Source: Methanoculleus oceani | GTDB taxonomy: Archaea; Halobacteriota; Methanomicrobia; Methanomicrobiales; Methanoculleaceae | Assembly (NCBI RefSeq): GCF_023702065.1 | Contig: NZ_QFDM01000003.1 | Coordinates: 372,001-436,000, forward strand | Direction of reading: 5' to 3' | DNA length: 64,000 nucleotides | Part shown: one piece after another, positions 1 through 28,477 of the stretch | How positions within the stretch are numbered: the stretch's first letter is position 1 | Layout: every line of letters starts with the position of its first letter | Made by a program: the position numbers and the translations under genes | Notes under the pieces: model-generated | What the model was told of the DNA's origin: nothing | Databases searched by the model: none | What the model saw: the letters and a program-made list of their open reading frames with translations, nothing else

Positions 1-1213
1 ACAGCAGGACACTTACGCCGACGAATAAAAGGGATGTTGCGGTAATGATAGTCACCCCCGGGAGGATACGTGTTGCGGTGGAGACTGATCGTGGAGCGGT
101 CAAGAGAAGCCCTAGATCGAATGTGGCGTAATACAGGACCGTAATAAGCATAGATACGACCACAGCGGCTGGAAAAAACAAAATGAGCAATAACATGTGA
201 ATGAAAGGCGCAGAGACTCGTTGTAACATAAACAACCGAAGCCTTGTAGGAGGATGTGTCATACGTGCGAGGAGCCACCTCCATCGGGAAACCGGCATGG
301 AATACAAACTTAACGCTCTGACAAGTGGTGCCGATGCCCCTTGGCACCGGGCTGCAACACAGTCGGCCGCAAGTTCCGAATACCAGAGGGCTGCCAGTGG
401 TAAGAAGATAATACTCGCAACCCACATCAGGGATGTCAGCAAAATTATGAATAGCCCCGGGAGAGCTATGAATAGAAAATTACGATGTATCACTAGAAGC
501 CATGCAAATATATTGATAATAAATTCCCCGGGCGGCATCGATCCAGAGAGTTCGATGAACATTGGCTGAAATGAAGTCACGAGGGCTACGATGAAAAACG
601 GGACAACGACCGTAACAACAAAGAGGACGGGCCAGAAGTTGAGCAGGATTCGAAAACCGCTTCCCGCACCGGTGATCAGGGTGTCACCGTTTCGGACATG
701 GGCGATCTCATGAAGGAGGACTCCGCGAGCACTCTCGTTATCCGTTTTCCAGAGTTTCATCACACCCCCCATGAGGCCCATACCCGCCTTTTGAAAACTG
801 CTGGGATAGATGAAAACTACCTGATCCGTGCGCATCGGGTTGTTCAATATGGAAACATCGGGCAGGTAGTTCCGGATAAACGCGGAAATCTCTGGGATGG
901 TTGCGATCTGAACTTCGTCTGTAAGGCCATATTTCCGCCGTATGTACGATCGTCTGATAGACGGAGCTACAAGAGAAAGAACGCCGATGATTATGATCAG
1001 CAGTGGGAAAATCTCAAAAAAATTTGCTAATCGAAAAAGAAATCCAAACGGAACGAGCTCCTCGCCTGGAAGAGGGGTCGTAGAAAGCATGTCGGAAAGC
1101 AATATCAGGAGAAAATTCAGGTTAAAACGAAAGGTTGCTATAAAGATTATAAGCCATATCCAGAGATAAGGAGGGAGGAGGTATAGTTTTCCTTCCTCTG
1201 GAACAATATTCAT
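1..1213 (-). CDS. Membrane-embedded M48-type zinc metallopeptidase, 3' end cut by window edge
   Basis: Reading the complement from ATG at 1213 gives an uninterrupted frame of 404 codons that leaves the window without a stop. Two hydrophobic segments lie near residues 17-37 and 70-84. A gluzincin motif HEIAHVRNGD starts at residue 168 and is followed by several more membrane spans. A second motif, SELAAD, has Glu280 and Asp284. HExxH plus a downstream ExxxD in a multi-span protein is the layout of M48 (HtpX/Ste24) and M56-like peptidases, which cut membrane or unfolded proteins; the exact family is inferred. The ATG overlaps the stop of the upstream gene (ATGA), so the two are translationally coupled. 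The sequence is visibly more AT-rich than the rest of the window and lies 3' of a tRNA-Leu gene, suggesting acquisition. Confidence 0.85.
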   Translation of the reverse strand, partial: MNIVPEEGKLYLLPPYLWIWLIIFIATFRFNLNFLLILLSDMLSTTPLPGEELVPFGFLFRLANFFEIFPLLIIIIGVLSLVAPSIRRSYIRRKYGLTDEVQIATIPEISAFIRNYLPDVSILNNPMRTDQVVFIYPSSFQKAGMGLMGGVMKLWKTDNESARGVLLHEIAHVRNGDTLITGAGSGFRILLNFWPVLFVVTVVVPFFIVALVTSFQPMFIELSGSMPPGEFIINIFAWLLVIHRNFLFIALPGLFIILLTSLMWVASIIFLPLAALWYSELAADCVAARCQGASAPLVRALSLYSMPVSRWRWLLARMTHPPTRLRLFMLQRVSAPFIHMLLLILFFPAAVVVSMLITVLYYATFDLGLLLTAPRSVSTATRILPGVTIITATSLLFVGVSVLL

Positions 1214-1752
1214 GTACTTTCCTTAAGGCGCCCGATAGCCTCCATGGTTCCGTCAGGCTGTTCCAATAGTGCGCGGATTATCCGATATGCGATGCAGCCA
1301 CGCTCTTCTTCCGGAAGAGGGATATCTTTCAGTTGTTCATCGATGATCGATACTACCTGCCTGAGTGAGTAAATCGGTTCTTGCACCCGATCTGCACCTT
1401 GCTGAAGTTCGGGTTCGACAAGAACCTCTTTTGTCCGGTCATGTAGCGAGAGGATATTACAGACCGTCGTCAGGGTGTTGTTTATTGATGCCGTCGAACC
1501 CAGGAGGTTGAGAATGTATGGAACTGCGGCAAAAATTCCCGCAAGAACGTGGGGAAGAAGAAAGACCATTCCCCCGGGCACAAACGAGCCTTCAGGGGCG
1601 TTATCCGTCTTGAAAAGTGCCTCCCGCTGTTTCCCCCCGGCGATAAAAGCACTGACAAGCAACGGGGCGAAATCAGACTCGTCGGGTATCGCATTCTCGG
1701 CAAGATGAATCGACCACAGTTGAAGTGACGACGACAGCTGTTCAGGCGCCAT
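1210..1752 (-). CDS. Unknown protein coupled to the membrane peptidase
   Basis: About 180 residues from ATG 1752, which is preceded by a GGTGAG ribosome-binding site. A TATA-like element near 1796-1804 would place the transcript start just ahead of it. The frame stays open upstream, with alternative ATGs at 1791 and 1896, but these lie at or above the TATA box. The middle of the protein has one hydrophobic stretch (roughly residues 55-85, rich in Gly, Leu and Ile). The C-terminal half is polar and helical with many Glu, Leu and Gln. I recognise no family. The stop overlaps the peptidase start by four bases, so it is probably a partner, regulator or membrane anchor of that enzyme. Codon use is AT-leaning like its neighbour. 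Confidence 0.7.
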   Translation of the reverse strand: MAPEQLSSSLQLWSIHLAENAIPDESDFAPLLVSAFIAGGKQREALFKTDNAPEGSFVPGGMVFLLPHVLAGIFAAVPYILNLLGSTASINNTLTTVCNILSLHDRTKEVLVEPELQQGADRVQEPIYSLRQVVSIIDEQLKDIPLPEEERGCIAYRIIRALLEQPDGTMEAIGRLKEST

Positions 1753-1941
1753 ACCCTTCTCACCCAGCTTCAGCGGGGCACTAGAGTACATATGAGCATA
1801 TAAAATTATGGAATAAAACAAGGCAATGATCTCATGGTGAAAAAACGCAGAAAAGCGCCTTGTCTGGCCGGGGCTCACTTTGTTTGCCCCGACCACCTCC
1901 CGAACAACCTGAATGTGCGGGGATATAACCCAAATTCCAGA

Positions 1942-2026
1942 TGCGAGGGATGGGATTCGAACCCATGGACCCCTGCGGGAGTGGATCTTAAGTCCACCGC
2001 CTTTGGCCGGGCTTGGCTACCCTCGC
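1942..2026 (-). tRNA. tRNA-Leu (anticodon UAA)
   Basis: The complement folds as a class II tRNA: acceptor arm GCGAGGG pairing with CCCTCGC, anticodon loop CTTAAGA with anticodon TAA, a long variable arm, and the T arm GGGTTCGAATCCC. CCA is not encoded. The AT-rich peptidase pair lies directly on its 3' side, the usual side for integrated elements. Confidence 0.95.
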
Positions 2027-8275: not shown

Positions 8276-10135
8276 TCAGGAGAGCAGCCGCTTGAGCTCG
8301 CGCCGGAGAGCCTCGCTGACGACCTTCCCGTCCACGCTCCCCCGGATCTCCTGCATGACGACCCCCATCAGGGGGCCGAGCGCGCCCATGCCCTTCTCCC
8401 GGGCGAACGCCTCGCGCTCGGCCACGATACGCCGCACGATCGCTTCCACATCCGCCCCCGAGACGGCGGGGCCCATCTTCTCGATGGCCGCGTCCACCCG
8501 GTCCAGAGGCGCCCCGGCCCCCTCGCCGGCGGTCCGTGCGAGTTCGGCGAGGAGGTCCGGGATCGCCTCCTTTGCAGCCCGCCCGGCCTCGACGGCCGAG
8601 AGGAGGGCGAGGATCTCGTCCTCGCTCACCCGGCCGACGGCCACGCCGTCGCGGGCGAGCTCCCGGCAGGTGGCAAGGAGCGTTCTGGCCGCGACGGTGG
8701 GGCGGACGCCGGCGGCGACGGCCGCTTCAAACGTCGGCAGCCGCTCGGAAAACGCCACCTGGCGTGCCAGCGCCTCGTCGAGACCGAACTCCCGGACGAA
8801 CCGTTCCGCCCGGTCGGTGAGGAGTTCGGGCACCGCGATGCTCTCCCACCGGGCGGCGTCGATCTCGACCTCAAAGACGTCGGTCTCGGGATACATCCGG
8901 GCGGCTCCCGGGAGCGGGCGCATGTAGGCCGTGCTCCCTTCCTCGAGCATCTTCCGGGTCTCCTCGGGCACGCCGAATAGAGCCATCTCCGCGCGGATCA
9001 TCACCTGCTCGGCCGCACAGCCGGCACGCTGCCGGGTTGCTGCCACGATGACGACGCAGTCCTCTTCTGCGGCGCCGACGAACTCTCGCAGGCGCGCCAC
9101 CTCTTCTGCGGTGACGCCGTAGGCGGGGAGTTCGTCGGTGTGGAAGATCCCGCCGACGCCGCACTTCTTCGCGTAGTCCGACATCTCGCTCCCGAGACGC
9201 CGCCCGGGCTGGATCTCCCGTCCGACGAGCCCCGCAAACCCGCAGAGCCGGACGGCCAGGATGGACTTCGCCTTCTTTAAGATGGCGGACGCCGTCCCGG
9301 AGAAGAGGGCGGTGACGTCGACGACGGTGTGGTCCACCCGGGCGCCGCGTTCCCGAAGGGTGTCCCGGATGGAGAGGAGGGCGACCTGCCGCTCGACCTC
9401 GCGGCGCACCACCTCGGCGATGAGGTCGAGTTCCTGGACGCCCTTGATCTCCACTCGGGCGCCGTCCGCGATGGAGATGTTGACGTCCTGCCGGATCGTC
9501 CCGAGGCCGCGCTTCACCCGGCCGGTCGAGCGGAGCACCATCCCGATATGCCCTGCGACCTGCTGGACGGCCTCGGGGGTGTGCATGCAGGGAGCGGTGG
9601 TGATCTCGATGAGCGGGATCCCCAGGCGGTCGAGGGAGAAGGTCTCGTCCTCCACCCGTTGCGCCGCCTCCTCCTCGAGGCAGATCGTCTCGATCCGGCA
9701 ACCGTCGGGGAGGGCGCCGGAGAGCGCGACGAGCGCCGTCCGCTGGAACCCGCTGGTGTTCGAACCGTCGATGACGAGTTTCCGCATCGTGTGGACCTGC
9801 TCGGCGGGCGTCATGCCGAGCATCTTTGCTATCGTGAGACAGACCTCGAGCGCTTCGGGGTTCATCGGGGCCGGGGGCTCCTCGTCGTGCTCCACCAGGC
9901 AGACCGTGTCGTAGGTGTAGTAGCAGAACTTCCGGACGAGCTTCATCTCCTCCCGCGCCGCCCGGTCGATCTCCCCGAGTTCGCTCTCCGTCGCCCGGAG
10001 GTAGCGGTGAAACTCCCCGGTCCGCTCGGCGGTATCCCGGAGGCAGGTGGGGCACCGGCAGAAGAGCTTCTCGGCCGTGTCGAGCTGCTGGTGGATCTCT
10101 ATCCCGGCTTTGAGGCCGAGTTCCTTGTAGTCCAT
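8276..10135 (-). CDS. gatE: Glutamyl-tRNA(Gln) amidotransferase subunit E
   Basis: 619 residues from ATG 10135, which shares one base with the gatD stop (TGATG). GatE binds tRNA(Gln), phosphorylates the mischarged Glu and receives ammonia from GatD to form Gln-tRNA(Gln). The sequence opens with the GatB/GatE signature LGLKAGIEIHQQLDTAEKLFC and has the paired cysteines CRCPTC. An aspartyl-tRNA-synthetase-like insertion lies in the middle, and a YqeY-like helical tail is at the C-terminus (from about residue 500). The longer open frame running up to 11560 is only the gatD shadow. Confidence 0.95.
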   Translation of the reverse strand: MDYKELGLKAGIEIHQQLDTAEKLFCRCPTCLRDTAERTGEFHRYLRATESELGEIDRAAREEMKLVRKFCYYTYDTVCLVEHDEEPPAPMNPEALEVCLTIAKMLGMTPAEQVHTMRKLVIDGSNTSGFQRTALVALSGALPDGCRIETICLEEEAAQRVEDETFSLDRLGIPLIEITTAPCMHTPEAVQQVAGHIGMVLRSTGRVKRGLGTIRQDVNISIADGARVEIKGVQELDLIAEVVRREVERQVALLSIRDTLRERGARVDHTVVDVTALFSGTASAILKKAKSILAVRLCGFAGLVGREIQPGRRLGSEMSDYAKKCGVGGIFHTDELPAYGVTAEEVARLREFVGAAEEDCVVIVAATRQRAGCAAEQVMIRAEMALFGVPEETRKMLEEGSTAYMRPLPGAARMYPETDVFEVEIDAARWESIAVPELLTDRAERFVREFGLDEALARQVAFSERLPTFEAAVAAGVRPTVAARTLLATCRELARDGVAVGRVSEDEILALLSAVEAGRAAKEAIPDLLAELARTAGEGAGAPLDRVDAAIEKMGPAVSGADVEAIVRRIVAEREAFAREKGMGALGPLMGVVMQEIRGSVDGKVVSEALRRELKRLLS

Positions 10136-11364
10136 CAGACCGACCTCCGCCGGATCTCGCCCGCGAGGTCGGTCTGCATCAGCACTCTCACCCGTTCGGG
10201 GTCCGACTCGTTCCCGAGCACCCACATCAGTTTGACGAGCGCCGCCTCGGGGAGCATATCCTCGCCCTCGATGACGCCGGCGGCAAGAAGATCTCTTCCC
10301 GTGTTGTAGACCCGGTCGCATACCCGGCCGTGGAGGCACTGCGACGTCATGACGACGGTCATCCCGTCCTCGATCAACTCCCGAAGTTTCGGGATCCACG
10401 CCGTCGCCACGTGCCCGAGCCCCGTCCCCGATATGACCAGGCCCGCACAGCCCTCGAAGGCGTCGAGGACCCCGGACGGCATCCCCGGGTAGAAGTGGAT
10501 GAGAGCGCAGCGCTCTTCGAGCGCATCGTGGAGCTCCGGCTCCTCTGTTCCCCGCCGGACCGCCTCGTCCGAGAGGGTGACGGAGAGCGAGGGGTAATCG
10601 ACGTAGCCGAGCGGCGCCATCCCCATGCTCTGGAAGGCGTCGCGCCGGGAGGTGTGCATCTTCCGGACCCTCGTCGCCCGGTGGACGGCGCACCGGTCGT
10701 CGTTCGTCGTCGCGTGCATCACCACCGCCACCTCCCCGAGATCGCCGGTGGCGACGGCGGCGCTGCAGAGGGCGTTCATGGCGTTGTCGGAACTCGGGCG
10801 GTCGGCGGACCGCTGCGACCCGACAAAGACGACCGGCACCGGCGTCTTGAGCATGAACCTGACCGCCGCCGCCGAGTAGGCCATCGTGTCGGTGCCGTGG
10901 GTGACGATCACCCCGGCGACCCCGTGCCGGATCTCGTCGTAGACCGCCCGGGCGAGTTCCTGCCAGAGTGCCGGACGCATGTTCTCCGAGAGGATGCTCG
11001 CCACCTGGCGGTCGCGGTAGAGGGCGATATCGCCGAGCTCCGGGATCGCCCTCAGGATGTCGCTCGCCGAGAACTGGCTCATCACCGCTCCGGTCCGGTA
11101 GTCCACCCTGCTTGCGATCGTCCCGCCGGTGGATATGATGGCGAGGTCCGGGAGGTCGGGGTTCTGGACGACGACTCCCGCGCCTGCCGGCGGCTGCGGG
11201 GCCGCTCGTTCGACGAGTTCGATCTTTTCGGGCGACGTCCCGATGTTGTAGCCGCTGTCCAGTTTGACGACGGCCATCCCGTCCCGTTGTGTGATGTAGG
11301 TGCCGGTGAGCGCGGTCCCGCCGTTCGCATAGCGCACCAGGTCTCCGGTCTGAAGTGTCTCCAT
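10135..11364 (-). CDS. gatD: Glutamyl-tRNA(Gln) amidotransferase subunit D
   Basis: 409 residues. GatD is an L-asparaginase-type glutaminase that supplies ammonia to GatE. The four catalytic residues are visible in their normal spacing: Thr82 in STGGTIAS, Thr158-Asp159 in THGTDTM, and Lys235 in TRVRKMHTS. An N-terminal beta-barrel segment of about 60 residues precedes the catalytic domain, as in other GatD. It is the middle gene of the argH-gatD-gatE unit, sharing one base with each neighbour, so the three are translated in close succession. Confidence 0.95.
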   Translation of the reverse strand: METLQTGDLVRYANGGTALTGTYITQRDGMAVVKLDSGYNIGTSPEKIELVERAAPQPPAGAGVVVQNPDLPDLAIISTGGTIASRVDYRTGAVMSQFSASDILRAIPELGDIALYRDRQVASILSENMRPALWQELARAVYDEIRHGVAGVIVTHGTDTMAYSAAAVRFMLKTPVPVVFVGSQRSADRPSSDNAMNALCSAAVATGDLGEVAVVMHATTNDDRCAVHRATRVRKMHTSRRDAFQSMGMAPLGYVDYPSLSVTLSDEAVRRGTEEPELHDALEERCALIHFYPGMPSGVLDAFEGCAGLVISGTGLGHVATAWIPKLRELIEDGMTVVMTSQCLHGRVCDRVYNTGRDLLAAGVIEGEDMLPEAALVKLMWVLGNESDPERVRVLMQTDLAGEIRRRSV

Positions 11365-12842
11365 TATGCTGCCAGCCTCCGTGATTCGAGGATAAGGTCT
11401 TCAAACGTGCGCGAGAGCGCCGTCTGGGTCTCCTCCGCCCATGCCGCGTCCCGGGCGAGGAGTTCCGTCTGCTCCGCAAGTTGCACCGCGACCGCCGCAG
11501 GCGCCGGGCCGCCGACGATGCTCCGCACGGCAACGGCGTGGCGCGGGTCGAGAACGGCATCGATCTTCTCCGGGGTTATCCCCAGGTCCACGACCGAGAT
11601 ATCGGCCGCTTCCCGGGCGGCGGCCTCGAGCGTGGCGAGGTCGAGCGAGCCGTGCCGTACCGCCCGCCCGACGATCCGGTGGGCAGTGCGGAATGCAAGT
11701 CCGTACTCCCGGACGAGGACGTCGGCGAGCTCCGTAGCAGTAGAAAAGCCCCTGCCCGCCTCGGCGGCCATCCGCTCCGTATCGAACGTCGCAGAACCGA
11801 TCATCCCGGAAAGGAGCGGGATACTCTGCCGGGTGGCCTCCACGCCCCGCCAGAGGTGCGGGGTCAGCTCCTGGAGGTCGCGGTTGTAACTCATCGGGAG
11901 ACCCTTGGTGATGGTAATCGCCGCAGTAAGCGAACCTGCGACCGACCCGGCCTTCGCCCGCATGATCTCGGCGACGTCCGGGTTCTTCTTCTGGGGCATG
12001 ATCGAGGATGAGGAGCAGTAGGCGTCGTCGAGCCGGACGAACCCGAAGAACGCGGTGCTCCAGAGGACGAGCTCCTCGCAGAGCCGGCTTGCCGTCGTCA
12101 TGCAGACAGTTGCATCAGCAAGCACCTCGATGGCGAAGTCCCGGGCGGCGACCGCGTCCATGCTGTTTGCTGCCGGGCGGGAAAAGCCGAGGAGAGCGGC
12201 GGTGTAGTCGCGGTCGAGCGGAAAACCCGTCGAGGCGAACGCCGCCGAACCGAGGGGCGATACGTCCACCCGGGCATACGCCTCCCGCAGCCGGGCAGTA
12301 TCCCGTGAGAAGGCCTGCTCGTAGGCGAGGAGGTAGTGGGCCAGCGTCGTGGGCTGGGCGTGCTGGAGGTGGGTGAAGCCCGGCATCACCGTCTCCGTAT
12401 GCCCGGCGGCGACGTCGAGCAGGGTCCGCCGCAGGTCGGCGAGCGACCGTACGAGGGCGATGATCTCCTCCTTGAGCCGCATCCTGATGCAGGTGGCGAC
12501 TTCGTCGTTGCGGGACCGGCCCATGTGGAGGCGGCCGCCGAAGTCCTCGCCCACCCGGTCGATGAGGTAGGCTTCCTTGCCCGCGTGGACGTCCTCGAAC
12601 CGCTCGTCGAACGCCTCCTCCGGGAGGCCGTGGTCGTGGAGGTCGAGGAGCGCCGCCATCAGCGCCCGTGCCGGAGCTTCGTCGATGATCTCCTGCCGCC
12701 GGAGGCCGAGGAGGTGCGCCATGTCCACGAGGAGGTCCGCTCCTGCAATCCAGCGGTCGGCGTCCATCGACGCGAGAAAGTGCTCGAGATCGCCCGAACG
12801 TTCGCCGGAGAGACGGCCCTGCCGAATCTGATCCGTTCGCAT
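11364..12842 (-). CDS. argH: Argininosuccinate lyase
   Basis: 492 residues. It cleaves argininosuccinate to arginine and fumarate. All three fumarase/aspartase-superfamily blocks are present: HMGRSRNDEVAT (106-117), GFTHLQHAQPTT (155-166) and the flexible catalytic loop SSSIMPQKKNPD (278-289). A TATA-like stretch near 12880-12890 (complement) would give a short leader. It heads a minus-strand operon with gatD and gatE, an unusual pairing of arginine synthesis with tRNA amidation. The fumarate it releases can enter the fumarase step encoded at 16526. Confidence 0.95.
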   Translation of the reverse strand: MRTDQIRQGRLSGERSGDLEHFLASMDADRWIAGADLLVDMAHLLGLRRQEIIDEAPARALMAALLDLHDHGLPEEAFDERFEDVHAGKEAYLIDRVGEDFGGRLHMGRSRNDEVATCIRMRLKEEIIALVRSLADLRRTLLDVAAGHTETVMPGFTHLQHAQPTTLAHYLLAYEQAFSRDTARLREAYARVDVSPLGSAAFASTGFPLDRDYTAALLGFSRPAANSMDAVAARDFAIEVLADATVCMTTASRLCEELVLWSTAFFGFVRLDDAYCSSSSIMPQKKNPDVAEIMRAKAGSVAGSLTAAITITKGLPMSYNRDLQELTPHLWRGVEATRQSIPLLSGMIGSATFDTERMAAEAGRGFSTATELADVLVREYGLAFRTAHRIVGRAVRHGSLDLATLEAAAREAADISVVDLGITPEKIDAVLDPRHAVAVRSIVGGPAPAAVAVQLAEQTELLARDAAWAEETQTALSRTFEDLILESRRLAA

Positions 12843-13190
12843 CCTATCAACAGTCCTGTCTGTACCGTTTGACCGGGGGAGAGATTAAAACCACACCCCG
12901 CAGGCACCGGAGATTACGGGCGGGCTCTCGTGAGGCAGCCGGCCGGGGGTCCCGTGATCGGTGGCGACGCGGTCGACCCCTCCCGATCACCGTTCTTGCA
13001 GCCAGACCCCTCAGGGCTCATGCATCCCCGGTCGGCCTCCATACCCGGCATCCATATCACCCTATAAGGAAAAAATAAAGGCAGTTATTTCTACTAAAGT
13101 ATAGTAATGCCCCTGGTTTTCGACAATTCTATATACCGATAGCGTGAAGATTACACCGTATACCAGTTACCCATACAGGTGGATATATTC
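12843..13190. other. Divergent intergenic region (argH / ABC importer)
   Basis: No convincing gene. It holds the argH promoter on the left and the importer promoter on the right. An inverted repeat GTGATCGG (12954-12961) with CCGATCAC (12983-12990) could form a hairpin with a 21-base loop. The right part (13070-13160) is AT-rich and contains the operator-like dyad and TATA described separately. Confidence 0.6.
13092..13135 (+). promoter_or_regulatory. Promoter with operator-like dyad for the ABC importer
   Basis: A perfect dyad TACTA-AAGTA-TAGTA (13092-13106) sits just over 20 bases upstream of a TATA box TTCTATATA (13128-13135). The ATG at 13191 follows an AGGTGG ribosome-binding site (13177-13182). 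Position upstream of TATA fits a regulator site; the regulator is unknown. Confidence 0.5.
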
Positions 13191-14177
13191 ATGAGACCGA
13201 TTACCGCAATTCTTCTGGCCGTGGCCCTGGTCGCGGCGTTCACGTTTGTGAGCGGGTGCACCGGAACAGGCACCGGCGATGTAACGCACCTGCGCATCGG
13301 CTACCAGCCGAGCACCCACCAGATCGCCCACGTCACCGCGATGGAGAAGGGATGGTGGCAGGAAGACCTCGCGCCGCTCGGCATCACGCAGGTGACCGAC
13401 TACGAGTTCGGCACCGGCGCGCCCGAGATGCAGGCGATGCTTGCCGGGGACCTGGATGTCGCCTACGTCGGCGCCGCCCCGTTCGTCGCGGCCGTCAGCA
13501 CCGGGCTTGACGCCAAGATCGTTGCCGCGGTGCAGACGCAGGGGTCCGACCTGGTGCTCAGGAACGAAGTCCCGTACTCGACCCCCGCCGACCTCGTGGG
13601 CAAGAAGATCGCGACCTTCCCGCCGGGAACAATCCAGGACACCATCCTGCGGACCTGGCTCGAGGAGAACGGTGTCGATCCCGCAAGCGTTGAGATCATC
13701 CCCATGGACCCCGGCGCCGCAACCACCGCCATCTCCGCGGGCCAGGTCGACGGCGTCTTCCTGCCCCACCCGTCTCCGGCCATCATCGCGGCGGAGGGTA
13801 CGGGGAGAACCGTGGTGAAGTCGGGAGAGATGCTGAAAGATCACGCATGCTGCGTTCTCGTCGCGAGCGGTTCGCTGATCCGCGAGCACCCCGAGATCGT
13901 CGAGCAGGTCGTGAAGACCCACATCAAGGCGACGGAGTACAACCTCGAACATAAGGACGAGGCTGCAGCCCTCTACGCAGAGAAGACCGGACAGAACGTC
14001 GAGACCGTGAAGGCGTCCTTCCGGGACTGGGACGGCACCTGGACCGCCGACCCGCAGGTCATCACGTCGTCGGTGGTCGAATACACAGAGCTCCAGTACG
14101 AACTCGGCTACATCAGCAAACCTCTCACACAGGACGACCTCTTCGACCTCTCCTTCTACGAGAAAGCCCGGGCATAA
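13191..14177 (+). CDS. ABC transporter substrate-binding lipoprotein, NitT/TauT type
   Basis: 328 residues. The start is ATG 13191, with AGGTGG eight bases upstream, rather than the in-frame GTG at 13179. A signal peptide ends in the lipobox FVSGC (Cys23). The mature part is a type II periplasmic-binding fold, with the opening HLRIGYQPSTHQIAHVTAMEKGWW typical of the nitrate/sulfonate/taurine/thiamine-precursor binding group. The ligand could be an aliphatic sulfonate, nitrate-like anion or a pyrimidine precursor; sequence alone does not decide. A permease and an ATPase follow on the same strand. Confidence 0.88.
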   Translation: MRPITAILLAVALVAAFTFVSGCTGTGTGDVTHLRIGYQPSTHQIAHVTAMEKGWWQEDLAPLGITQVTDYEFGTGAPEMQAMLAGDLDVAYVGAAPFVAAVSTGLDAKIVAAVQTQGSDLVLRNEVPYSTPADLVGKKIATFPPGTIQDTILRTWLEENGVDPASVEIIPMDPGAATTAISAGQVDGVFLPHPSPAIIAAEGTGRTVVKSGEMLKDHACCVLVASGSLIREHPEIVEQVVKTHIKATEYNLEHKDEAAALYAEKTGQNVETVKASFRDWDGTWTADPQVITSSVVEYTELQYELGYISKPLTQDDLFDLSFYEKARA

Positions 14178-14309
14178 CCCGGGAACCCTACCGTTTTTCC
14201 CTCCAAAAGTATCTTTTAGGGATGTGTCGATGAAATAAGAGAGAACCTTCCGGAGCGGATCGGTCTTCCCCCGCCTTCCGGCAAGTAAACCGGGCAATGG
14301 AATAGAACC

Positions 14310-15086
14310 ATGAACCTACAGACACAGAAACGACTACTCGGCATCGCAGCACTCATTGCCGTAGCAGTGATCTGGCAGATAATCGCCGAATACGTGGTAG
14401 GACGATCCTTCATCCTCCCGAGCGTCACCGACGTCGCCGGCGCATTCGTCAACCTCCTCGGGTCCGGCACCCTTCTTGCGGACACGATGGTCAGTCTCGA
14501 ACACTTCGGGATTGGGCTCATTGCGGCGTTCTTCCTCGGCGTCCCTATCGGGATCCTCATGGGATGGTTCCGGGTCGCGGACTTCCTGCTCGACCCGATC
14601 ATCGAGATCCTCCGCCCCATCCCGCCGCTCGCCTGGATCCCGTTCGCCATCATCTGGTTCGGGCTCACCACCCAGGCGGCGGGCTTCGTCATCTTTGCAG
14701 GAGCGTTCTTCCCGATCCTGACCGCGACCTACTCCGCGTTCCGGGCCGTCCCGAAGGTCTTTGTTGAAGCAGGCAAGGTCCTCGGGTGCGACACCTCCTT
14801 TGAGTTGATCCGCTACGTCGCCCTTCCCGCCGCCATTCCGGCGATAGCCTCCGGCATCAGGATCGCCATGGGCGTCGGGTGGATGTGTCTCGTGGCCGCC
14901 GAGATGTTCGGCGTCTCCAGGTACGGCCTCGGGTACCAGCTCTGGCATAACTACTACCTCCACCAGATGCCCAACGTCGTCGTCTACATGCTGATCCTCG
15001 GCCTTGCAGGCCTCATCATCGACCGCATCTTCAGGAATTACGTCGACCGACAGCTTCTGCGGTGGCATGCAGGGGAGGTGGCCTAG
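14310..15086 (+). CDS. ABC transporter permease, NitT/TauT type
   Basis: 258 residues with about six hydrophobic helices. The cytoplasmic coupling loop EAGKVLGCDTSFELIRYVALPAAIPAIASGIRIAMG (about 152-187) is the EAA motif that docks the ATPase. The first helix begins after a short polar N-terminus (MNLQTQKR). It is the membrane channel of the importer whose binding protein is at 13191 and whose ATPase is at 15088. The 132-base gap after the binding-protein gene includes a poly-T run after 14189, possibly an attenuating terminator. Confidence 0.9.
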   Translation: MNLQTQKRLLGIAALIAVAVIWQIIAEYVVGRSFILPSVTDVAGAFVNLLGSGTLLADTMVSLEHFGIGLIAAFFLGVPIGILMGWFRVADFLLDPIIEILRPIPPLAWIPFAIIWFGLTTQAAGFVIFAGAFFPILTATYSAFRAVPKVFVEAGKVLGCDTSFELIRYVALPAAIPAIASGIRIAMGVGWMCLVAAEMFGVSRYGLGYQLWHNYYLHQMPNVVVYMLILGLAGLIIDRIFRNYVDRQLLRWHAGEVA

Positions 15087-15087
15087 A

Positions 15088-15849
15088 ATGAGCGGGGTTA
15101 CGATACGGGATCTGGGCAAGGCCTTCCCGAAGGAGGACGGCACCGCCACGCAGGCGCTCGAAGGCGTCGACCTCGAGATCGGCGACGAGGAGTTCGTCTG
15201 CCTGGTCGGGCCGTCCGGGTGCGGGAAGACGACGCTTCTCCGGATCATCGCCGGGCTCGAGACCGCGACCGCCGGGAGCGTGACCGTCGACGGCCGTCCG
15301 GTCACCGGCCCGGATCCGAAGCGGGGGATGGTCTTTCAGGAATACTCCCTCTTTCCCTGGCGAAGGGTGATCGACAACGTCGCCTTCGGCCTCGAGATGA
15401 AAGGCGTCGCAAAGGAGGAGCGCCGGCGGACGGCGGATCACTACCTCGATATGGTCGGCCTCTCCTCATTCCGGGACGCCTACCCCTTCGAGCTCTCCGG
15501 CGGGATGCGGCAGCGGGTGGCGATAGCGAGAGCGCTTGCAAACGACCCCGACGTCCTCCTCATGGACGAGCCGTTCGGGGCGCTGGACGCCCAGACCCGG
15601 AACCGGATGCAGAAAGAGCTCCTCTTCCTCTGGGAGCAGACGAAGAAGACGATCGTCTTCGTCACCCACAGCGTCGACGAGGCGGTCTACCTCTCCGACC
15701 GGATCGTCGTCCTCTCCCCGCGGCCGGGGTCGGTCCGGGAGATCATCGAGATCCCCTGGTCCCGACCGCGGGACCGCACCAGCGCCGAGTTCGCGGAAGT
15801 TCGCCGAAGGGTGCTCCGGATGATCGATGAGACCGAAAACACCCAGTAA
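15088..15849 (+). CDS. ABC transporter ATPase, NitT/TauT type
   Basis: 253 residues from ATG 15088, one base after the permease stop, with a strong GGGGAGGTG site at 15072-15080. Walker A is GPSGCGKTT, the Q-loop is VFQEYSLFPW, the signature is LSGGMRQRV, Walker B is VLLMDEPFGALD and the H-loop is THSVDEA. The SLFPWR sequence after the Q-loop is characteristic of the nitrate/sulfonate/taurine group. The longer frame from 15004 overlaps the permease and is not used. It energises import of the unknown anion or precursor. Confidence 0.92.
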   Translation: MSGVTIRDLGKAFPKEDGTATQALEGVDLEIGDEEFVCLVGPSGCGKTTLLRIIAGLETATAGSVTVDGRPVTGPDPKRGMVFQEYSLFPWRRVIDNVAFGLEMKGVAKEERRRTADHYLDMVGLSSFRDAYPFELSGGMRQRVAIARALANDPDVLLMDEPFGALDAQTRNRMQKELLFLWEQTKKTIVFVTHSVDEAVYLSDRIVVLSPRPGSVREIIEIPWSRPRDRTSAEFAEVRRRVLRMIDETENTQ

Positions 15850-15910
15850 GGTTTATTAGCGGAGATCTCCATTTTATAAAGCACTCATAGATCGGCAGGA
15901 GTTTTTAACA

Positions 15911-16423
15911 ATGGTACGAAAACCAGCGAAGATGTACAGGAATCTCGCAAAGAAAGCATATACACGCAGGGAATACATGGGCGGCGTGCCGGGCAGCAAG
16001 ATCGTGCAGTTCGATATGGGCAACCTCAGCGAGAACTTCCCGGTCGAACTCTCCATCGTCGTCGAGGAGACATGCCAGATACGCCACACGGCCCTCGAGG
16101 CCGCCCGTACCGGCATCAACAGGCAGCTCCAGAAGGAGGTCGGGAGGGCGAACTACCACTTTAAGATCCGGACCTTCCCGCACCACGTTCTCCGTGAGAA
16201 CAAGCAGGCAACCGGCGCAGGAGCGGACCGTGTCTCGGAAGGCATGCGCCTCGCCTTCGGAAAGGCCGTCGGAACCGCGGCACGGGTTGAACGGGGCCAG
16301 AAGGTCTTCTCCGTCTGGACAAGCCCGCAGCACGCCGAGAAGGCAAAGGCCTCCCTCAAGCGCGGCATCTACAAGATCCCGACCCCCGCGAGGATCGTAG
16401 AAGAACAGGTACCGGTAGCGTAA
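15911..16423 (+). CDS. rpl10e: Large ribosomal subunit protein L10e (uL16)
   Basis: 170 residues, standard length for archaeal L10e. It begins [23 protein letters not shown], and the family segments for 23S rRNA and tRNA contact follow, including the internal loop [21 protein letters not shown] near residues 96-116. A TATA box (CATTTTATAAAG near 15869-15880) and a GGAG site in the leader are visible. It is probably monocistronic, lying between the importer and the TCA-branch operon. Confidence 0.96.
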
Positions 16424-16497
16424 ACCCGCACCCCGTCCCATCCTTTTTGCGAGGAGCGCCTCATAGACGGCAGATCCGGTACCTGGGGGAATATAGG

Positions 16498-16526
16498 TTT
16501 TTATAGTCGCTTCCCACCAGTATAAA
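16498..16526 (+). promoter_or_regulatory. TATA promoter of the TCA-branch operon, leaderless
   Basis: TTTTATA at 16498-16504 is centred about 25 bases before the fumarase ATG at 16526, and no ribosome-binding site precedes that ATG. The first gene of the long operon is therefore probably translated from a leaderless mRNA. Confidence 0.6.
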
Positions 16527-17365
16527 TGATGGTTAACCCGGCAGACACGGCACTTTCGGGCGCACTGGCAGACGCCACAGAGAGGGCTCTTAGAGAGGCC
16601 GAGATCCGGCTCCCTCCCGACGTGCTCGCAGCGCTCCGGAGGGCGGCGGCGGCCGAGAGGGACGAGATCGCACGGCAGGAACTCGCCAATATCCTGGAGA
16701 ATATCGCACTCGCCGGGGAGCGGCAGGTGCCGATCTGCCAGGATACCGGCGTGCCGGTGGTCTACCTCACCCTGCCTCCCGATATCCCGTTCTCGCCCGA
16801 CCTCTTTAGCGGGGTGCGGGAAGGGGTGCGCCGGGCGACGGCCACAATCCCGCTCCGTCCGAACGTCGTCGACCCGCTCACCCGGGAGAACACCAACGAC
16901 AACACCGGTGCCGGGATGCCTGCAGTCCACGTGACGCCCGGGGACCGGCTCACGGTAACCGTGCTCCCGAAAGGCGCAGGCTCCGAGAACGCTTCAAGGA
17001 TCGGGATGCTCCTCCCCTCGCAGGCAGCACAGATCCCGAAGTTCGTCGCCGAGACGATGCTCCTTGCGGGAGGGAGACCCTGCCCGCCCGTGATCCTCGG
17101 CGTCGGGATCGGCGGGACGTTCGATATGGCGGCAGCGCTTGCAAAGGAAGCCCTGCTCCTCCCGGTCGATACCATGGACGACTACGAGCAGGAGATCTGC
17201 GACGCGGTGAACGCCCTCGGCATCGGGCCGATGGGTCTCGGCGGCGATACGACGGCGCTCGCGGTGAAGGTGAAGCGGGCGGACTGCCACACCGCGTCCC
17301 TCCCGGTGGCGGTGAACGTGCAGTGCTGGGCCTGCCGCCGGGCGACCGTGGAGGTGGAGCGTTGA
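16526..17365 (+). CDS. fumA: Class I fumarate hydratase, alpha (N-terminal) subunit
   Basis: 279 residues. With the beta subunit it hydrates fumarate to malate, or the reverse, using a [4Fe-4S] cluster. The cluster cysteine segment PICQDTGVPV (Cys71) and the later GPMGLGGDTTALAV block are both class I signatures. Cys residues near 227-265 (DCHTA, CWAC) complete the set. A second ATG follows directly at 16529. The stop overlaps the TTG start of the beta subunit. It is the first gene of an operon covering fumarase, 2-oxoglutarate synthase, succinyl-CoA ligase and DacZ. Confidence 0.94.
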   Translation: MMVNPADTALSGALADATERALREAEIRLPPDVLAALRRAAAAERDEIARQELANILENIALAGERQVPICQDTGVPVVYLTLPPDIPFSPDLFSGVREGVRRATATIPLRPNVVDPLTRENTNDNTGAGMPAVHVTPGDRLTVTVLPKGAGSENASRIGMLLPSQAAQIPKFVAETMLLAGGRPCPPVILGVGIGGTFDMAAALAKEALLLPVDTMDDYEQEICDAVNALGIGPMGLGGDTTALAVKVKRADCHTASLPVAVNVQCWACRRATVEVER

Positions 17366-26849: not shown

Positions 26850-27322
26850 GCCGGGAGAGACAACTTTTTTTGACCGGGGCAGGGCCCGGCTTCTCCGGGA
26901 GAGAAGAGACCTCACCCCGACAACCACGTATCGGCCTCTAAGACCTGCGTTATACGACGGACGCCTGATTCTACCATACCGGGGCATAACCGGGCTGAAA
27001 TCGAAGATAGAAGTGTCTGACACCTTATCACCGGCCTGGATACCATGTGTGCAACACGGGATGTTTCCGGGACGTCTCCAATATCCGCCATGGTCCGGTT
27101 TACCGGGACAGATCCGGGGATGAACCGGTCCAGGCTCCCGGCCCTTCAGCCGGTCAAAACTTCGGGTCCATTATGCCCTAATTCCCGGAACAACGGTCAC
27201 GATGCCGTCCACAGGGAGACCGGTGAAAACGTCCGGCGGCCGTGATGCATAACTGCCGGAGGATAGATCAGAGAAGGGGGGCTCGGAGGGCCCCCCGGTA
27301 AGAATAAGAGAGGACGGTCGAT
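26850..27322. other. Intergenic region with no convincing gene
   Basis: 473 bases between convergent hisB and histone genes. Short open frames here (27045-27245 forward and others) have no coding character. It has a poly-T stretch after hisB and the histone terminator hairpin at the right end. I see no RNA gene or repeat array. Recurrent CCGG-rich short motifs give it a degraded look, and decayed coding sequence is possible. Confidence 0.5.
27276..27296 (-). terminator. Hairpin terminator of the histone gene
   Basis: Perfect 7-bp stem GGGGGGC / GCCCCCC (27276-27282 with 27290-27296) around a 7-base loop, about 25 bases past the histone stop. On the minus strand it is followed by TTCTCT rather than a pure T run. 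Confidence 0.55.
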
Positions 27323-27529
27323 TTACGCGGACTTAACCGCGAGGTCGACGTCTTCTGCCTTGATCGTCTTGCGTCCCGCGTGCTGAGCAAGCCTGTTGGC
27401 TTCCTTGGTCAGCTCGGCGATATACGCCTCAGCCTTGGTAACCAGTGCGGCAGCAGCGTCGCTGCCCACTCTCTCAGCACCATTCTTCTTTGCGATACGT
27501 ACAACCGCAGCAATAGGTAGATCTGCCAT
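27323..27529 (-). CDS. Archaeal histone
   Basis: 68 residues making one histone fold: LPIAAVVRIAKKNGAERVG, then a long middle helix, a short loop, and the C-terminal GRKTIKAEDVDLAVKS. It matches HMf-type histones that wrap DNA as dimers and longer arrays, with no tails. The gene is monocistronic with an AT-rich promoter (TTTAAATA near 27568-27575), a GAGGTGG ribosome-binding site, and a 7-bp inverted repeat that includes that site. A strong hairpin follows the stop. Confidence 0.97.
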   Translation of the reverse strand: MADLPIAAVVRIAKKNGAERVGSDAAAALVTKAEAYIAELTKEANRLAQHAGRKTIKAEDVDLAVKSA

Positions 27530-27539
27530 AATTTACTTC

Positions 27540-27576
27540 CACCTCTAAAAAGAGGTGTATGAGTTAATATTTAAAC
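27540..27576 (-). promoter_or_regulatory. Histone promoter with an inverted repeat covering the ribosome-binding site
   Basis: CACCTCT-AAAA-AGAGGTG (27540-27557) is a perfect dyad. On the minus strand its downstream arm AGAGGTG is the ribosome-binding site of the histone gene. The TATA-like GTTAATATTTAAAC lies at 27563-27576. The predicted transcript start (about 27546) falls inside the dyad, so it could be a DNA operator or, if transcription starts earlier, an RNA hairpin. Confidence 0.55.
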
Positions 27577-27715
27577 GTTTCGGGATTATCTCGGAAATTT
27601 GCGTTTCTCTTCTCCATTGAGGATACATCCGGACAGTGCACACCGATACCCGGCAGAGAATTGTGCCGATTGTAAAACGCCACATATTGACCCATTTGGC
27701 CAATGAAGGCTCAAT

Positions 27716-28477
27716 TCAGGGTTTTTTAGACTCCGCCAGTGATTTCGCGAGCATTATTGCATTCGTATAATCTGCTGAGGCGCGCGACGTATCCACGAAA
27801 ATTCTATCGATATTTACCACCGGAGCACCATGCCCGGCCCCGGCTCCAAGGAGCACGAGCGTACGGAAGATCAGGTTCCCGGAAACCCCGTCGGGGGCCA
27901 CGACCATCCCGTACCGCCTCGCTGCCTCCTCGATTAGGATCTCGGTGTGCTCAGCACCGGTCAGGCGGGCGACGAGCTCGGCATCCGCCATCGTCCGGTC
28001 GACGACCGGGTGCCGTCCGAGATCCCCGAGCCGTCCTCCCGAGAGGACCGCCACTCCCTCGGCGAGCCCGAAACTCCTGGCGATATCCCTGCCGACTCTG
28101 ACGAACCGAACCTTCTCCTCGACCGTCCAGCCCTCGTCGACCCCGACCGGGGCAAGGAGGAAGAGGTGCCCGTCGGCAGTCTCGAGAAGGGCGATCCGCT
28201 CCAGGCGGTCGAGACCTGCGGCCTGCTTGAGGGCCTTTAAGGTGGAGGACGCAGGCAGGGTCCCCCTGACGGCGGCATCTATCCTGCCGGCATAGAGAGC
28301 CTCGATAAGGGCGACCTCCGGCTCCTCGGCTTCGACGACCGTAACCGCATCAGGAAACAAACAGGCGGTCCCGGGGTGGGAAAAAAGGATCAGGTCGACC
28401 TCCCGGCCGACCGCCCGGGCGGTCGCGAGGATCCTCGCATCCGGGGATGCTGCACCAAGCCCGACCGTTACCGGCAT
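27716..28477 (-). CDS. mtxX: Methanogenesis marker protein 4 (MtxX)
   Basis: 253 residues. It is related to the phosphate acetyl/butyryltransferase fold: VTVGLGAASPDARILATARAV at the N-terminus, RGTLPASSTLKALKQAAG, and APDGVSGNLIFRTLVLLGAGAGHGAPV near the C-terminus. It matches MtxX, found near-universally and only in methanogens, whose role is not established. It overlaps the 3' end of the marker-2 gene by ten bases, so the two methanogen-specific genes are cotranscribed. Confidence 0.88.
   Translation of the reverse strand: MPVTVGLGAASPDARILATARAVGREVDLILFSHPGTACLFPDAVTVVEAEEPEVALIEALYAGRIDAAVRGTLPASSTLKALKQAAGLDRLERIALLETADGHLFLLAPVGVDEGWTVEEKVRFVRVGRDIARSFGLAEGVAVLSGGRLGDLGRHPVVDRTMADAELVARLTGAEHTEILIEEAARRYGMVVAPDGVSGNLIFRTLVLLGAGAGHGAPVVNIDRIFVDTSRASADYTNAIMLAKSLAESKKP

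Follow-up and report, generated by a model that had tools for sequence, protein, structure and literature searches.

A membrane M48 peptidase and a partner of no recognised family in a two-gene insert at tRNA-Leu of Methanoculleus oceani

Membrane peptidases of the HtpX/Ste24 type (M48, PF01435) combine a zinc site made of HEXXH and ExxxD with several membrane spans and an HPP..R block after the third ligand. A membrane gluzincin of another family, M56, is accompanied by a small partner in the two-gene systems BlaR1–BlaI and MecR1–MecI, and the cytoplasmic metalloprotease domain of BlaR1 acts in BlaI derepression (PMC9834060). The 3' end of tRNA-Leu is a target of both casposons and tyrosine-recombinase elements; in Methanosarcina mazei the 14 bp duplicated by casposons comprise the final 4 bp of tRNA-Leu and 10 bp more (PMC6977970). 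The locus described here resembles each of these systems in part. Its peptidase has the zinc site, the membrane spans and the HPP..R block of the HtpX/Ste24 type, but falls far under every HtpX equivalog cut-off, carries extra C-terminal membrane helices and always occurs with a dedicated upstream partner. The two-gene logic is that of BlaR1–BlaI and MecR1–MecI, yet the peptidase has neither an M56 Pfam match nor a penicillin-sensor domain, and the partner, unlike BlaI and MecI, has no winged-helix match. The insert bearing both genes shares its target with casposons, but not Cas1 or evident terminal inverted repeats, and was rejected as a casposon on these two points and on the length of its direct repeat, which at 20 bp, compared with a casposon duplication of 14–15 bp, is rather as expected of a tyrosine recombinase att site. 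No paper on such a peptidase–partner pair was found in the literature.

The window, i.e. the whole stretch of 64,000 nucleotides that was analysed, corresponds to positions 372001–436000 of NZ_QFDM01000003.1 (G000:C3) within the 2.46-Mb genome of Methanoculleus oceani. Numbering to the left of base 1 runs down through 0, so that base 0 directly precedes base 1, and the left-flank sequence was taken from the genome loci L004 and L005. Features within the window are collected in Table 1.

Table 1. Features of the peptidase–partner insert and its target (window coordinates)
Feature	Position	Strand	Remarks
Membrane M48 (gluzincin) peptidase	1..1213	-	451 aa, of which 404 aa within the window; gene extends about 142 bases past the left window edge
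Partner protein, 180 aa	1210..1752	-	Helical, one hydrophobic segment (63–81); ATGA overlap with the peptidase gene
Shine-Dalgarno GGTGA(GAAGGGT)	1753..1765	-	Precedes the partner ATG
AT-rich stretch with archaeal TATA-like TTTATATG	1791..1810	-	Candidate, read from sequence
Right end of the insert, putative short remnant (DHLPNNLNVRG)	1870..1931	+	Read from the translated bases
Right copy of the 20-bp direct repeat AAATTCCAGATGCGAGGGAT	1932..1951	.	tRNA-Leu 3' end and 10 bases
tRNA-Leu (TAA), integration target	1942..2026	-	ARAGORN

The initial annotation had taken the first gene for an M48-type peptidase with several membrane spans that runs off the window edge, and this was borne out once flanking genome bases were added: the complete minus-strand frame comprises 451 codons and a stop at -142..-140. 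The protein matches Peptidase_M48 with 29.5 bits (Pfam gathering cut-off 20.3) and contains about 8–9 hydrophobic segments. Six of seven relatives match M48 at E<=1, and the one from G613 scores 28.1 bits. Across the 8 full-length peptidases compared, H168, E169 and H172 of the HEIAH motif (168–172), E280 and D284 are invariant, as is the HPP(320–322)...R326 block. By its Pfam score and its HEXXH/ExxxD ligands the protein belongs to M48, its zinc-dependent peptidase activity being predicted. The earlier proposal of an HtpX-like enzyme is not supported in the strict sense, since the protein reaches just 11.7–17.8 bits against NCBIfam equivalogs with cut-offs of 245–422, and a separate strong M48/HtpX-type gene is present elsewhere in the genome (C1:169730). 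The PDB sequence search returned only HtpX at E 0.13, which was taken as chance. Foldseek alone gave no significant match for the structural model, which is of low confidence (pLDDT 63.5); the nearest structures were BlaR1 (the top match, Z 10.3, rmsd 6.1 over 190 residues), M48 3c37 (Z 9.0), Ste24p (Z 8.9) and BepA (Z 8.8). The model may be said to support a membrane gluzincin fold, and does not imply membership in BlaR1.

The ATGA overlap, also noted before, is evident from the coordinates: the partner reads from an ATG at 1752 to a stop at 1212–1210, which overlaps the peptidase start at 1213 by 4 bp. In agreement with its description as a protein of no recognised family, the partner gave zero matches in Pfam, NCBIfam, PADLOC and PHROGs. 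Matches to designed helical bundles in the PDB were taken as chance, and a fold search with its poor structure model (pLDDT 55) returned nothing usable. Twenty residues are invariant among the partners (A18, E19, P23, E25, D27, A29, P30, A35, G39, G40, L46, F47, G55, F57, P67, L70, L146, P147, L162 and L163), and the N-terminal part contains the conserved motif AE...P.E.D.AP....A...GG. A hydrophobic stretch is present near 50–81 in most of them. A helix-turn-helix family was sought in 8 partners and is absent from all of them; together with the match to M48 instead of M56 this ruled out membership in BlaR1–BlaI. In all three close copies (G000, G003 and G131) GGTGA stands at an equal distance before the partner start, and the TATA-like TTTATATG, which lies inside the insert, is a possible promoter. 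Comparison of G000 with G003 gave a dN/dS of 0.30 for the partner and 0.31 for the peptidase, the neighbouring cupin-like gene giving 0.22.

The pair lies 3' of tRNA-Leu(TAA), as originally noted, and a search to the left for a duplicated tRNA-Leu 3' end found one outside the window, at -244..-225. The two copies match at 17 of 20 positions, while the next best match for the 20-mer within 24 kb reaches 13 of 20. Because of the three mismatches an exact 11-mer att search near the tRNA gene missed this repeat, and it was the empty-site comparison that revealed it. For the empty site of G028, blastn of the neighbourhood runs straight from -225 to 1932, with 92% identity beside the site. There G028 reads ...AATCGTAAATTCCAGAATGCGAGGGATGGG...; in G000 the left side has ...AATCGTAAATTCCGGATACGAGGAATATG... 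and the right side ...AAATTCCAGATGCGAGGGATGGG.... The 20-bp direct repeat therefore bounds the insert and coincides exactly with the boundary that the empty site defines. The repeats are 2,176 bases apart, and the insert of 2.18 kb has the peptidase and the partner as its only gene content. Its GC content is 49% compared with 64% for the window, in accordance with the reported AT-richness of the pair. Elsewhere in the window GC falls to 55% at 27001–28000, adjoining a minus-strand gene (27716–28477) that resembles a methanogenesis marker protein. In G003 the pair occupies the same tRNA-Leu site and has repeat copies of its own; measured with a somewhat shorter motif, these lie 2,148 bases from each other. 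As regards the properties of a tRNA-targeting element, the flanking tRNA 3'-end repeat and a clean empty site are present, and an integrase of its own is lacking: one was looked for on the former suggestion, and none was found in the insert or next to the pair. Neither Cas1 nor evident terminal inverted repeats were found in the insert. The pair is an accessory cassette integrated at the 3' end of tRNA-Leu; it may be the leftover of a larger element, or an element that was mobilised in trans. Two similar short stretches, probably remnants of a helix-turn-helix regulator gene, were seen at 1870–1931 (DHLPNNL) and at L004 18560–18958 (GHLPNNL), the latter about 1.4 kb beyond the left window edge. 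A further variable region, about 8 kb long (-11031..-3020; L004 about 8969–16980), is absent from G003, and its right boundary is the place where the pair of G131 is situated.

The same tRNA-Leu carries other cargo. Different inserts in G019 and G033 have this left boundary too, as a 22-bp copy (AAATTCCAGATGCGAGGGGTGG), after which the sequence looks like the C-terminal portion of a tyrosine integrase. The G033 fragment alone had no match in Pfam, but its longer relative in G032, located near the site, matches Phage_integrase with 48.6 bits. In both cases (L050 of G033 and L047 of G019) the probable integrase C-terminal fragment begins at the attL copy, as would be expected of SSV-type integrases split on integration. 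At the tRNA-Leu of G010 there are HsdM and HsdR of a type I restriction-modification system and a DUF4062 protein, at that of G030 Cas1, PolB, Dcm and Vsr, and at that of G014 an NYN protein; a TIR protein is encoded close by in G029. The G030 genes (C14, L051 4547–13259) look like a casposon-like element (Cas1 of 415 aa, PolB and HNH) with a Dcm methylase and Vsr beside tRNA-Leu. From the integrase fragments, restriction-modification genes, casposon-like element and NYN protein it follows that the site is a hot spot, of which the pair is a small resident.

Profile scans for relatives of the pair covered the phylum of the window. Within Methanoculleus it occurs in two of 35 genomes, plus the MAG contig G131:C18 (JAENYT010000041.1); over the whole order the count is 3 of 232 genomes. 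Five copies belong to four genomes of a Methanosarcina-like genus, g82 (G255, G402, G436 and, with two copies, G464), and one copy to a further family (G613). Distant copies show 26–33% identity for the partner and 28–31% for the peptidase. In nine of nine loci from three families the partner directly precedes the peptidase, with overlap, contact or an 8 bp gap, the overlap being 4 bp in G000, G003, G131 and G613. The two profiles matched the identical four genomes in a sample of 393. Every partner relative above noise adjoins an M48 relative downstream. Distances of partners and peptidases correlate with r=0.96, a value inflated by shared ancestry, as relatedness was not removed. There are also a fragmentary partner match in G629 (E 4e-4, with stops) and a short peptidase match in G471. 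No relatives of the pair were found in the viral-contig, plasmid and phage collections, and no tRNA genes near the Methanosarcina-like copies. NosD or lipoprotein-like genes neighbour the pair at some loci; a divergent NosD-type beta-helix gene stands upstream of it in three of the five Methanosarcina-like copies (L063, L065 and L073). Since the closest relatives, G028 and G032, are without the pair and the more distant G003 has it, gain or loss must have occurred more than once. In G131 the peptidase copy is frameshifted and may be decaying or wrongly assembled. The C18 pair adjoins the end of a NucS_C-type gene, not tRNA-Leu, so that its position differs from that in the window if the contig is sound. 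The tRNA-Leu contig of this MAG (C47) is 89–92% identical to the window, while other long matches reach 67–73%; for this reason G131 was rejected as an independent genus, and the MAG is probably mixed, with Methanoculleus-like contamination.

Taken together, the reading of the initial annotation as an acquired module with a dedicated partner stands, in view of the att-type repeat, the patchy occurrence (two of 35 genomes and one MAG contig) and the deviating composition; the pair is not in the same place in all relatives, its composition is not normal and a flanking repeat is present. The HtpX identity did not hold, and a protein-quality or defence role was not established, PADLOC giving no match. 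The pair, whose two genes the searches never found apart, looks like a genuine, undescribed functional unit. Its structure, conservation, co-occurrence, purifying selection, insertion and empty site having been computed, we infer a functional role as follows. That the membrane M48 peptidase and its partner make up a mobile accessory module, in which the partner serves the peptidase as its dedicated client or regulator, appears to us about evenly poised between right and wrong. Both proteins would probably be produced from one transcript via coupled translation, and the partner may use its hydrophobic segment and conserved N-terminal motif to dock on the peptidase at the membrane. It could hold the peptidase inactive, or be cleaved by it, upon a signal that may be stress on the membrane or envelope, with a presumed benefit to the host. 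By analogy, this would be best read as regulated proteolysis, similar to BlaR1–BlaI in logic only, although the partner might instead act as a chaperone-like subunit or as a toxin.

If the pair served in defence (abortive infection) or addiction, the partner would restrain the peptidase or be activated by it; a harmful activity at the membrane would then be set free on infection or when the cassette is lost. The overlap of two genes that are rare, patchy and acquired is in line with this, as are the restriction-modification system (G010), the Dcm/Vsr genes with casposon-like Cas1/PolB (G030) and the NYN protein (G014) at the same tRNA-Leu and the TIR protein near the site in G029. However, tRNA sites draw cargo of every kind, no match to a protein of known anti-phage defence systems was obtained in PADLOC 2.0.0, the phage, plasmid and viral-contig collections searched do not contain the pair, and three of the five Methanosarcina-like loci adjoin a NosD-type surface protein with no evident defence island, which leaves such a role rather unlikely. 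Somewhat less can be said for envelope quality control by an HtpX/BepA-like peptidase with an adaptor presenting damaged membrane or surface proteins. The M48 match with its conserved HPP..R block, the proximity of the low-confidence model to BepA and Ste24p and the NosD or lipoprotein-like neighbours at some loci speak for it, but a genome that already holds a strong M48/HtpX-type gene, presence in 1–3% of genomes and a mobile location are ill-suited to housekeeping, and we consider it improbable. That the genes are decaying passengers, left from an earlier integrated element and useless today, might be suspected from the absence of an integrase, the drifted repeats, the gene remnant at the right end of the insert and the frameshift in G131. 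This is highly improbable given a dN/dS of about 0.3 for both genes and a pair that is intact and co-conserved between families.

On the reading as a mobile module with a dedicated client or regulator, the finding concerns M48 membrane peptidases, which are usually taken as housekeeping HtpX: here a subfamily is bound to one new-family partner, in a cassette at a tRNA gene found in about 1–3% of related genomes. The unit is small, complete and testable (two genes, 1.9 kb) and has relatives in a Methanosarcina-like genus, Methanosarcina itself being amenable to genetics. Tentatively, it may represent a new mobile two-gene system of regulated proteolysis or conflict in methanogens, in which a membrane M48 peptidase and a small, hydrophobic helical partner of a new family would form an effector switch.
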